From Pseudomonadota bacterium (lineage in GTDB: Bacteria; Pseudomonadota; Alphaproteobacteria; Sphingomonadales; Sphingomonadaceae): a DNA stretch of 64,000 bases. The notes beneath the pieces were generated by a model. That model was not told where the DNA came from, made no database searches, and saw nothing but the letters and a program-made list of their open reading frames with translations. Shown here in pieces: positions 10,428 to 47,602 of this stretch. Position 1 is the first letter of the stretch; each line of letters opens with the position of its first letter. The stretch lies in the NCBI GenBank assembly GCA_039818985.1, contig JBCBSU010000001.1, positions 1,886,367 through 1,950,366 of the forward strand. The letters run 5' to 3'. Position numbers and translations under genes: made by a program.

Positions 10428-11372
10428 CTATTGCGTCTTCGCCTGCGGCAAACAGGACAGGCGGATCTGCTTCTTGCGCTTGTCGAAAGTGACGGAAGAA
10501 CAGTGCTGCATGTCTTCCTGGCGGATATCCAGATCATAAAGGACCGTGCCCGGATTGGGGATCGCCCCGATGATGGTCAACTCGTCGCTATCCTTGTTGG
10601 CCCGGCGCAGATCGCCGTCCACTATGCCGGAACTGTCACCATAATCCTGCAGCCGAACATGAAAATCATTCAGGGTTATTGCACATAGCCGCAGCGGCTC
10701 TGAAAGCACCACCTTGCGGATAGGGCGGTCAATATCACCGGGATATGTCGCACTTTCTGTCTTGCCCACCAGTTCGCCGTCAAAGGCCTCGGCAAGTGCG
10801 GCTCCAGCGGCGGCGGTGGCAATGCTCTCGAGGTTCAGGCTGCTGAAAAACACATTGATGGTCCGTTTGCCGACCTTGATCCTGGTCCCTGCGGTCCTGG
10901 TCCAGCCAATTCTGTGCAGTCGCATGGTGCAGATTTCTTCACCCGGCTGCTCTTCACGCCATTGAAAGCGGACTATATCATGCGGCAGGCCATAGGGGCC
11001 GATAGCGCCATCTTCGTCGTCCACATATTCGCCCTCGCTCCAATAGGCCTTGCCCTTCCAGTTCAGCGTATCGGCGCGAAGCCGCAGCTTTTGGTAAAAG
11101 GACGGAAACCGGATCGGGCCGACAGTGAAATAGCCGGCATCGTACCCCGGGTCGATACCGGCGGCCTGAACGAAACTGTAATTCAGCTTGATATGCCCGG
11201 ATTCGGTGGCATTGACCAAGAGTGTGACCGGAACATCCTCCGCTTCCTCATTGACAATATATGCCGTAAATCTGTGTTCGCCGGACAGGGTGATTTCGCT
11301 CGGGTTACGATCACGCGCTGCAGCGTTTCCGGTAAGAATCAACGTCAAAACAAGACCCAGCCACAGCCGCAT
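10428..11372 (-). CDS. Exported protein, paralog of the gene at 13.5-14.4 kb
   Basis: The start at 11372 is chosen because it gives a signal peptide (MRLWLGLVLTLILTGNAAA) and has AGGAGA 8-13 bases upstream; a longer open frame to 11561 has neither. The mature protein of about 295 residues is clearly related over its length to the product at 13524-14447. Shared landmarks are GPxGxPxDIVRxxWRE, the C-terminal GDSSGIxDGDLxRANxDSxE, and xDxxHCSSxTxDK...IRLSC. The N-terminal half (PVTLLVNATESG, then a helix, then strands) resembles the layout of retropepsin-like aspartyl proteases, but the catalytic D-T/S-G is missing. It is probably periplasmic. Function is unknown. Confidence 0.65.
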   Translation of the reverse strand: MRLWLGLVLTLILTGNAAARDRNPSEITLSGEHRFTAYIVNEEAEDVPVTLLVNATESGHIKLNYSFVQAAGIDPGYDAGYFTVGPIRFPSFYQKLRLRADTLNWKGKAYWSEGEYVDDEDGAIGPYGLPHDIVRFQWREEQPGEEICTMRLHRIGWTRTAGTRIKVGKRTINVFFSSLNLESIATAAAGAALAEAFDGELVGKTESATYPGDIDRPIRKVVLSEPLRLCAITLNDFHVRLQDYGDSSGIVDGDLRRANKDSDELTIIGAIPNPGTVLYDLDIRQEDMQHCSSVTFDKRKKQIRLSCLPQAKTQ

Positions 11373-19764: not shown

Positions 19765-19985
19765 GATACGACGACCGGCGACAGGCTGGTCTCCTGGCTC
19801 CCGGGTCGTCATCTGGGGCACCGCCTTCCCGGCCAGCCTGATCAAGGGCTCTCCAGTGGCATATGGCGCACAGACTCGCCGGTCACAGTTGCGGGGGCAG
19901 CTCCGGCGTGATGAAGCATGGCGCTCCACCCTGTTCCGGATTCCCAATTCACGCCCGTCTCCGGGCGACCTGTACCGTGGGCAGA
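19765..19985 (-). ncRNA. Cobalamin (AdoCbl) riboswitch
   Basis: Read on the minus strand, the order of conserved elements matches the cobalamin riboswitch: GGGAATCCGG, then CCCCCGCAACTGTGACCGG, GCCACTG, GGGAAGGCGGTGCC, and the B12 box GCCAGGAGACCAGCC (19786-19800) with the closing CCTGT pairing to upstream ACAGG. It lies about 90 bases upstream of btuB. A GGAAAG-CAGC-CTTTCC hairpin (19721-19736) between it and the start codon may belong to the expression platform. Binding of adenosylcobalamin is expected to shut off the uptake operon. Confidence 0.95.
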
Positions 19986-20246
19986 CGTCTATCGGCGTTG
20001 CTGTGCCTTGGCAAGACAGTAGCCACGCGCCCGGTCCGGCCAAGAAATGCTTCTTTGCCTTTGCCCGGGTGCTGCCTATATCGTCTGATACCATTCCTCC
20101 CGCCAGCGAGAATCTCCATCTTCAAGCGCGCCACCCAGAACGGCCAGACCATCGCAGGCGACAGCGCGCCACCGGCACGCGCCGGAGAGACGGCAGAGCG
20201 CGGCTCGCTCAGTACCAGGCCGGGCAAGTTCCTCAGCGGCAGCCTG

Positions 20247-45995: not shown

Positions 45996-46238
45996 ATGAA
46001 ACTTCGCGCTATTACCGCCACCGCTGCGGCACTCGCATTGACCACCACGCCGGTGCTGGCACAGGCCAATCAGGCCGAATCAGCCGAAGTATCGCGTTCG
46101 GTCGAAAAAGCTAACAGCAAAAGCGAACTTGAAGGTGGCACAGGTATCATCGTCGCCATCATCGCTGCTGCAGGTATCATCGGTGGTATCATCATTGCCG
46201 CTGACAATGACGACGACGATGCGCCGACCAGCCCGTAA
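45996..46238 (+). CDS. Small exported membrane protein, 80 aa
   Basis: The protein has a signal peptide (MKLRAITATAAALALTTTPVLAQ), a short polar region rich in Ser, Glu and Lys, then a glycine/isoleucine-rich hydrophobic helix (about 47-67: TGIIVAIIAAAGIIGGIIIAA) and an acidic tail (DNDDDDAPTSP). Very similar small proteins, an exported Gly/Ile helix followed by an acidic tail, occur in sphingomonads without an assigned role; that is from memory, not a search. ACAGGAG precedes the ATG by 7-8 bases. A strong terminator follows, so it is a monocistronic, probably well expressed gene. Confidence 0.7.
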   Translation: MKLRAITATAAALALTTTPVLAQANQAESAEVSRSVEKANSKSELEGGTGIIVAIIAAAGIIGGIIIAADNDDDDAPTSP

Positions 46239-46399: not shown

Positions 46400-46424
46400 G
46401 GAACATAATCCACCCGCTATCGTT
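46400..46424 (+). promoter_or_regulatory. EcfG (general stress sigma) promoter
   Basis: GGAAC (46400-46404), 16 bases, CGTT (46421-46424). This equals the alphaproteobacterial EcfG/SigT consensus GGAAC-N16/17-CGTT. No coding start follows for nearly 190 bases, but two hairpins begin about nine bases downstream, so it most likely drives a small RNA. Confidence 0.65.
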
Positions 46425-46431
46425 TGTGTGA

Positions 46432-46530
46432 TTGAGACAGCGATATTACCCCCCTCTTCCTGTCTCAGTGATATGCGTTCGGGCATGTGATCCTCCCCCC
46501 TTCTCAGCATGCCCGAACGCTATTTTCTCT
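46432..46530 (+). ncRNA. Putative stress-induced small RNA with two C-rich hairpin loops
   Basis: Hairpin 1: TGAGACAG (46433-46440) pairs perfectly with CTGTCTCA (46460-46467), with a 19-base loop containing CCCCCCTCTTC. Hairpin 2: a perfect 13-bp stem (46475-46487 with 46508-46520) with a 20-base loop containing CCTCCCCCC, followed by the T-rich tail TATTTTCTCT, as in a terminator. The size of about 100 bases, the EcfG promoter and the anti-Shine-Dalgarno loops resemble GsrN of Caulobacter and the CcsR RNAs of Rhodobacter (established families). Membership here is inferred. It would bind G-rich ribosome sites of target mRNAs. Confidence 0.65.
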
Positions 46531-46612
46531 ACGTGCAACGAGGCTTCATCCGTCATTCATGCGGTTCTGACCTATAGAGTCCGGTAATCCAATAGCCCCC
46601 GGGAGAGAATAG

Positions 46613-46750
46613 ATGCGCAAGTCCGCCCTGATCCTGACTGTCACCGCCGCAGCGCTGCTGGTCACTGCCTGCAACACCGTGTCGGGTATCGGCAGGGATA
46701 TAGAATCGGCCGGCGATGCCGTGGCCGATGCCGCGGACGCGGCAAAATAG
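46613..46750 (+). CDS. Entericidin A/B-type small lipoprotein, 45 aa
   Basis: The 45-residue protein has a basic start (MRKSALILTVTAAALLVTAC) with lipobox VTAC, followed by NTVSGIGRDIESAGDAV and an Ala/Asp end, the compact pattern of the entericidin family. GGGAGAG precedes the ATG by about 6 bases. In Escherichia coli, entericidins are membrane lipoproteins linked to stationary-phase lysis; here a cell-envelope stress role is likely. It follows the putative small RNA on the same strand and precedes the convergent tatC gene by 15 bases. Confidence 0.85.
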   Translation: MRKSALILTVTAAALLVTACNTVSGIGRDIESAGDAVADAADAAK

Positions 46751-46765
46751 CCACGAAATTTATCG

Positions 46766-47602
46766 TCAGTCGGCCTTGGCCGCGTCCTGTTTCTCAGTGA
46801 AACGCATGATCAGCATCGAGCCTTCGTAAAGCGCGATCAGCGGTAAGCCGAGGAACAGCATCGAAACCACATCGGGTGGCGTCAATATCGCCGCTACGGC
46901 AAAGGAGCCGACGATCATATAACGCCGCAGCTTCGCCAGCTGATCCCGGCTGACCAGTCCGGCCCGGTTGAGCAGCAACAGCAGGACCGGCAGTAAAAAG
47001 GCGATGCCAAAGGCCAGGATGATCTGCATGACGAAGGACAGATAATCGCCAATATTGGGCAGCGCCTCGAGCTCAAGGCCACCGCGATCACCTTCATATT
47101 CCAGCAAAAAGCCAAACATTAGCGGCATCACCACGAAATAGGCCAGCGCAGCCCCGGCGCTGAACAATATCGGCGTCGCCAGCAGGAAGGGCAGGAACGC
47201 CTTCTTCTCATTGCTGTAGAGGCCCGGCGCAACAAATTGCCAAAACTGATTGGCAATCACCGGGAAAGACACGAAGAACGCCGCAAACAAGGCAACTTTG
47301 AGCTCGACGAACAGCGCCTCATAAAGCTTGGTATAGATCAGCTTGCCTTCATCGCCGCCAAAAGCGGTAATCAGCGGCTGGGCGAGGATCGCAAAAATCT
47401 GCTCGGAAAAGACGAAACACGCGATAAAGGCGATAGCAAAGGCGACCAGGCTCCATAACAGCCGCTGGCGCAGCTCGATCAGGTGATCGAGCAGCGGCAT
47501 CTTGCCGCCATCAAACTCCGCCGATTTGTCATCCGGTGCAGGCTCTGCATTGTCGCTGGGCTCGGCAGCCGCAGGCATATCCTGAGCCGGGATGTCGCTC
47601 AT
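46766..47602 (-). CDS. tatC: Sec-independent translocase subunit TatC
   Basis: TatC is the twin-arginine signal receptor of the Tat export machine. The 278-residue protein has an acidic N-terminal extension of about 30 residues, then MPLLDHLIELRQRLLWSLVAF and six membrane helices. The conserved segments FVSFPVIANQFWQFVAPGLYSNEKK and FGIAFLLPVLLLLLNRAGLV are present. It overlaps tatB by four bases and is the last gene of the argS-to-tatC cluster. Confidence 0.96.
   Translation of the reverse strand: MSDIPAQDMPAAAEPSDNAEPAPDDKSAEFDGGKMPLLDHLIELRQRLLWSLVAFAIAFIACFVFSEQIFAILAQPLITAFGGDEGKLIYTKLYEALFVELKVALFAAFFVSFPVIANQFWQFVAPGLYSNEKKAFLPFLLATPILFSAGAALAYFVVMPLMFGFLLEYEGDRGGLELEALPNIGDYLSFVMQIILAFGIAFLLPVLLLLLNRAGLVSRDQLAKLRRYMIVGSFAVAAILTPPDVVSMLFLGLPLIALYEGSMLIMRFTEKQDAAKAD

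Follow-up and report, generated by a model that had tools for sequence, protein, structure and literature searches.

The window, by which we mean the whole 64-kb stretch of DNA analysed here, carries a candidate small RNA gene behind an EcfG-type promoter, flanked by a small secreted-type protein gene, an entericidin-family gene, and tatC. The features are as follows.

45996–46238, plus strand: gene for a small secreted-type protein (ORF, 80 aa), the upstream neighbour; present in 5 of 58 loci.
46400–46424, plus strand: EcfG-type promoter GGAAC-N16-CGTT, an exact match that is kept in related loci.
46431–46526, plus strand: candidate small RNA gene, delimited by the covariance models R1 and R2; the 5' end at ~46431 is predicted from the promoter.
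46431–46469, plus strand: hairpin 1, with the C-rich loop CCCCCCTC at 46449–46456; assigned from the fold and from double changes at all 10 pairs (30 sequences).
46475–46520, plus strand: hairpin 2, with the C-rich loop CCTCCCCCC at 46492–46500; assigned from the fold and from double changes at 12 of 13 pairs (30 sequences).
46521–46529, plus strand: T-rich tail, a possible terminator together with hairpin 2, assigned from the T content across loci.
46613–46750, plus strand: entericidin-family lipoprotein gene, a neighbour (Pfam Entericidin, 32.3 bits; cut-off 23.3).
46766–47602, minus strand: tatC, a neighbour used as synteny marker (Pfam TatC, 247 bits).

The 80-aa protein encoded at 45996–46238 had no match in Pfam or NCBIfam. 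Elsewhere in the window, a cobalamin riboswitch was found at 19767–19988 on the minus strand (100.4 bits).

The original prediction had described an exact EcfG promoter and, behind it, two perfect hairpins (8-bp and 13-bp stems) with C-rich loops and a T-rich end. Direct reading of the window bore out both descriptions. The –35 element GGAAC occupies 46400–46404 and the –10 element CGTT 46421–46424, with a 16-base spacer. This is the sole occurrence of exact GGAAC-N16-CGTT in the 64-kb window. By itself the match is weak, because 0.29 occurrences are expected in the window by chance and 22 of 100 window shuffles carry at least one.

The 8-bp stem of hairpin 1 (TGAGACAG/CTGTCTCA, 46433–46440 with 46460–46467) begins at the ninth base past the –10 element. 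It grows to 10 pairs (46431–46440/46460–46469), one of them U-G, and closes a loop at 46441–46459. Hairpin 2 has a perfect 13-bp stem (46475–46487/46508–46520) around a loop at 46488–46507. The two loops contain CCUCCCCCC and ACCCCCCUC, and each holds a run of six C (C6). Folding of 46431–46534 yielded –41.2 kcal/mol, as compared with –17.34 kcal/mol (sd 2.88) for shuffled sequences (z = –8.28); none of 200 shuffles folded as well. The T fraction in the tail was 0.41, relative to 0.21 further downstream (54 loci), and TTT was found in 39 of the 54. Termination at the 3' end of the RNA is only suggested by the sequence.

Relatives were sought by several routes. BLASTN matched 28 of 59 genomes at E ≤ 1, the window's own genome included, and the convincing matches were confined to G001–G003. 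The exact loop-2 pattern occurred in 5 of 119 family genomes, belonging to two genera, and gave a fourth convincing relative. A contig search with TatC as bait returned four loci, one of which was useful: a contig of Sphingomonas lenta (Sphingomonadaceae) carrying the same RNA ahead of an entericidin-like gene and tatC, with exact GGAAC-N16-CGTT in front. The covariance model R1, built from four sequences with the promoter excluded, recovered the S. lenta copy, which was outside its training set, at 46.6 bits and matched 45 of 149 family genomes at E ≤ 1. R2 was built from 31 loci on the RNA alone, again excluding the promoter. It matched 130 of the 397 genomes of the order (Sphingomonadales) at E ≤ 0.01, all of them within the window's own family, as well as 5 of 387 genomes of the class. 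Secondary R2 matches (18.8–29.7 bits) were left uncounted; almost all of them came from the reverse strand of hairpins already matched. The plasmids searched for the RNA gave no match.

Three of the five class matches lay outside the family and were weak (L099, L100, and L101; 40.9, 33.1, and 31.4 bits). None carries the promoter; they were rejected as relatives and are not part of the counts over 55, 58, or 60 loci given below. L099 and L100 have two C-rich hairpins at ~1501–1590 without an EcfG-type promoter, and they may represent other C-rich sRNAs.

The prevalence figures are lower bounds, because the genome search scores few first-look candidates under strict filters, and copies passed over at that genome-wide stage are recognised by R2. 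Three genomes missed in this way (G146, G354, and G067) carry the RNA with diverged stems, scoring 54–55 bits with R2 at the locus. Many family genomes have no R2 match at all, and 24 of 27 chosen family genomes had none beside tatC at E ≤ 1. Among these 24, L113, L122, and L124 contain the GGAAC...NGTT motif and lack the C-rich hairpins. The loci studied further were best-scoring matches, namely the best 30 of 47 places found with R1 and 30 found with R2, 6 of which were already included; the promoter and neighbour counts therefore describe the better matches.

Both stems were found to covary. With four sequences, double changes were seen at 13 of 23 stem pairs and 96.7% of 91 cells were paired, as against at most 42.4% for slid versions. 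The 30 distinct sequences gave double changes at 22 of the 23 pairs, with 94.5% of 689 cells paired; none of 500 shuffles reached the observed values, and the best slid version stayed at 43.2%. These percentages come from alignments (A3 and A4) that were fitted to the structure and are hence biased towards it. The loops behaved differently from the stems: in each of the 60 loci, both loop regions contain a C run of at least six, reaching up to 9 in hairpin 1 and up to 13 in hairpin 2. Hairpin 1 is close to UCGGAUAGCGACCUUUUGCCCCCCCGCUCUCGCUAUCCGA in many members.

The promoter motif is conserved along with the structure. GGAAC was correctly placed in all 60 loci, and GGAAC-N16/17-NGTT was found in 59 of them (spacer 16 in 52, spacer 17 in 7). 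When only the 56 loci chosen without using the motif were considered, i.e., after removal of L108, L110, and L111 (motif-aided picks) and of the window itself (L047), the motif was present in 55; the sole miss, L077, has CATT. L049, which is retained in this set, entered via a BLASTN match extending to the –10 element. In locus flanks, the same pattern occurred 5 times per 343,452 bases. Conservation in relatives of stems and promoter, on which the original prediction had staked its reading as a general-stress small RNA, was thus observed: the stems covary while pairs and C-rich loops persist, and the promoter motif stands at a fixed distance though it is absent from the search model. The results support that reading.

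We also considered whether the locus might make no functional RNA, being instead an inverted repeat at the DNA level, or a pair of terminators, whose promoter match is fortuitous. The 22 shuffles with a promoter match would fit such an accident. The covariation, however, is restricted to the stems, the C runs are always on the same strand, and the motif keeps its distance in 59 of 60 loci, which makes this explanation very improbable. On these sequence comparisons, the locus very probably holds a gene for a small regulatory RNA, common to many sphingomonads.

To place the RNA in its genomic context, we counted neighbours within 1.5 kb on each side of 58 loci. A gene for a phyP/phyT-like general-stress kinase lies just upstream in 43, the entericidin gene downstream in 46, and tatC downstream in 49; phyP and tatC are both present in 37. 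In S. lenta, the order is a sigma-factor gene at the ecfG place, phyR, a nepR-like ORF, phyP, the RNA, entericidin, and tatC. Here PhyR and the HisKA_2 kinase were called by Pfam/NCBIfam, the sigma factor by Sigma70_r2, and nepR from sequence; the sigma-factor gene is truncated by the locus end. In G116, 2.1 kb separates phyR from the RNA. The window's own lineage has an amidohydrolase gene and the small secreted-type protein gene upstream and no phyP link. The phyR gene of its genome is 1.5 Mb distant along the contig, and R2 found no copy of the RNA near it. The original prediction, which set the RNA beside an entericidin-type gene rather than at the ecfG locus, is thus right for the window's lineage and fails family-wide, given the upstream phyP-like genes. 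Because the kinase gene adjoins the RNA in 43 of the 58 loci, a stress role is likelier than could be known at the outset. In one further locus (L070, from G025), a CRISPR-DR4 repeat array was found at 283–676 on the minus strand, ~1 kb from the RNA.

The position ahead of entericidin raises the question of whether the RNA is separate from the mRNA of that gene. A second promoter, GGAAC-N16/17-NATT, was found downstream of the RNA in 33 of 55 loci, with 0.33 expected from the flanks; the count depends on the pattern, a looser one giving 36 of 54 loci and strict NGTT 2 of 55. In 32 of those 33 loci, the NATT promoter is 29–66 nt ahead of the entericidin start. Since in these loci entericidin is preceded by a conserved EcfG-type promoter of its own, whose –10 element resembles CATT (e.g., in L041, minus strand), it is apparently a widespread general-stress gene.

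The structure could instead be mainly a cis-acting 5' leader of the entericidin mRNA made from the EcfG promoter, with the short RNA as a by-product. Such a leader would account for the 46 loci in which the RNA and a downstream entericidin gene share a strand. It would also suit three loci of genus g63, where the entericidin ATG follows hairpin 2 by ~25 nt, and the window, whose entericidin gene has no GGAAC of its own. In these lineages, read-through is possible for the same two reasons. Against a leader as the main role, entericidin has its separate NATT promoter after the RNA in the 33 loci, and 12 of 58 loci keep the RNA though no entericidin gene is detectable. We consider the leader explanation improbable and favour a separate small RNA.

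The same arrangement can be traced to a species with a published EcfG regulon. In Sphingomonas melonis Fr1, #1443 is phyT (formerly phyP), #1444 nepR, #1445 phyR, and #1447 ecfG, according to the main text of PMC6599016. There, #1442 ("Predicted small secreted protein") belongs to the 50 genes with the strongest EcfG dependence (log2 –4.7), and its promoter, GGAACGAATGGCCCGACCGATCATT, is 30 bases ahead of the start (PMC6599016). Allowing at most one mismatch, we found this promoter 25-mer in two of 295 genomes of genus g112, one match being exact (G859). Both genomes have the RNA downstream of a phyP-like gene and ahead of the 25-mer, which precedes an entericidin gene by 30 bases. With R2, these two copies reached 73.2 and 73.9 bits, and each has its own GGAAC-N16-NGTT. 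From this match, G859 would be S. melonis or a close relative. The available text describes the EcfG regulons of S. melonis Fr1 and S. granuli TFA via protein genes, and a main-text word search of both found no sRNA in either regulon; in the main text of PMC6599016, the terms sRNA, small RNA, non-coding, and intergenic are all absent. Public S. melonis reads are held under ENA PRJEB30300.

Possible targets were searched for with the complement of loop 2. Allowing at most one mismatch, it occurred at 10 places in the genome, the RNA itself among them, as compared with 3 for a reversed control. Most of these places are repeat- or terminator-like, and none was convincing as a target. One complement, a lead only, is separated by 6 nt from the ATG of a downstream ORF, which reaches the locus end after at least 498 codons and which we take to be glyS-like.

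The C-rich loops of a stress-induced RNA might have a protein partner, or might act as a sponge for a second small RNA, rather than bind mRNAs. The loops keep long C runs and little other sequence, the search gave no clear mRNA target, and Caulobacter has RNA sponges that act against C-rich anti-Shine-Dalgarno sRNAs, as far as the available text of PMC12559287 describes them. GsrN, the nearest RNA in design, argues the other way: its C-rich loop pairs with G-rich mRNA, as compensatory changes demonstrated (PMC5869019, available text). We regard binding to a protein or a second small RNA as unlikely.

With the above results in hand, we favour a trans-acting general-stress small RNA of the GsrN design, controlled by EcfG and pairing with G-rich or Shine-Dalgarno sequences, undescribed in the sources searched; we put the probability of this reading at roughly 70%. 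In the proposed mechanism, PhyR would free EcfG, and EcfG–RNA polymerase would start transcription at ~46431; here the promoter and its placement are read from the DNA, and the dependence on EcfG is presumed. The product would be an RNA of ~95–100 nt, forming two stem-loops joined by a short linker, each with at least six unpaired C, as the covariation indicates. By analogy with GsrN, the loops would pair with mRNA leaders rich in G, Shine-Dalgarno stretches among them, and would mostly block translation. Some targets may be activated, as GsrN does with katG. The presence of two loops could mean two target classes or avidity.

A wider proposal can be put forward tentatively, and we think it possible rather than probable. 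The RNA may supply the post-transcriptional arm that has been missing from the general stress response of sphingomonads: a single RNA under EcfG control, integrated in the phyP/phyT-nepR-phyR-ecfG locus, would read two sets of G-rich mRNA leaders through its two separate C-rich loops and so form a repressing branch, having arisen independently of GsrN. The regulon that such an arm would join is known chiefly for activation. With a conserved RNA in its core locus, the response would gain a post-transcriptional branch, which could explain indirect EcfG effects.

Finally, we compared the RNA with known families. The Rfam scan of the window yielded nothing that reached a cut-off at the RNA. At lax settings, the window RNA resembled the rhizobial sRNAs ar7 (19.6 of 60 bits) and ar14 (16.4 of 58.8 bits), the likeness consisting of hairpins with C-rich loops. 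Membership in these families was rejected, as the scores are a third or less of the cut-offs, and neither family matched any of eight relatives at E ≤ 1. The only sub-threshold Rfam match on the RNA in eight related loci was Scr3202 (37.3 of 52 bits, L050). The window's genome has another locus with two C-rich hairpins and, after them, a hairpin resembling a terminator (L135; C1:2176288–2176413, minus strand). It scored 29.2 of 60 bits with ar7, has no EcfG-type promoter in the locus, and is possibly another C-rich sRNA. Our search of the open-access literature found no description of the RNA among the matches listed.

CcsR RNAs of Rhodobacter are clustered homologues whose loops carry CCUCCUCCC and whose control is of the RpoH type. 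The likeness to them is limited to the design, i.e., stress-induced C-rich hairpin loops; the RNA described here, in contrast, is present in one copy with a CCUCCCCCC loop and an EcfG-type promoter, and the CCUCCUCCC motif is absent. The alphaR8 family (SisA–D, MmgR) also presents a C-rich anti-Shine-Dalgarno element in an alphaproteobacterial sRNA (PMC12559287). In the available text of that paper, the element is a 10-mer, UUUCCUCCCU, left unpaired beneath a weak hairpin, and an FGase gene adjoins most members. We rejected membership, since the 10-mer is absent from 46431–46534 and no FGase gene is a neighbour.

GsrN, which is processed into a 5' isoform and stabilised by Hfq in its full-length form, is the closest in design. 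The available description of this RNA comprises an EcfG/SigT promoter, a length of ~100 nt, and a 5' hairpin with about six tandem C, with homologues usually near the general-stress locus. The first of these traits was found at the motif level in the window and in 55 of 56 loci; an RNA of ~100 nt with an exposed C-rich 5' hairpin loop is likewise present, its length being predicted. Erythrobacter litoralis is a member of the same order as the window. It has no apparent gsrN-like gene according to the available text of PMC5869019, which finds BLAST homologues of GsrN in Caulobacteraceae only and, by position, candidates in rhizobia and their relatives. The same text gives the six tandem C of the 5' loop as setting recognition, the katG pairing having been proven by compensatory changes, and names C. 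crescentus gsrN itself as an exception to placement near the general-stress locus (PMC5869019). R2 found no copy at phyR in 29 loci (E < 0.1) or in 12 wider loci (E ≤ 1). Among these 12, only L183 (G472, of another family) has an EcfG-type promoter together with a convincingly sized hairpin; this large hairpin, at 10700 on the plus strand near phyR, has C in its loop and is possibly a GsrN-like RNA.

The sphingomonad RNA differs from GsrN in several respects. GsrN has one recognition loop in the available description, whereas the sphingomonad RNA has two C-rich loops. The latter is also confined to one family, R2 having given no promoter-bearing match outside it in 387 class genomes, and usually lies between phyP and entericidin. 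By analogy, this RNA would correspond to Caulobacter GsrN functionally and, across the family, also in its genomic position.
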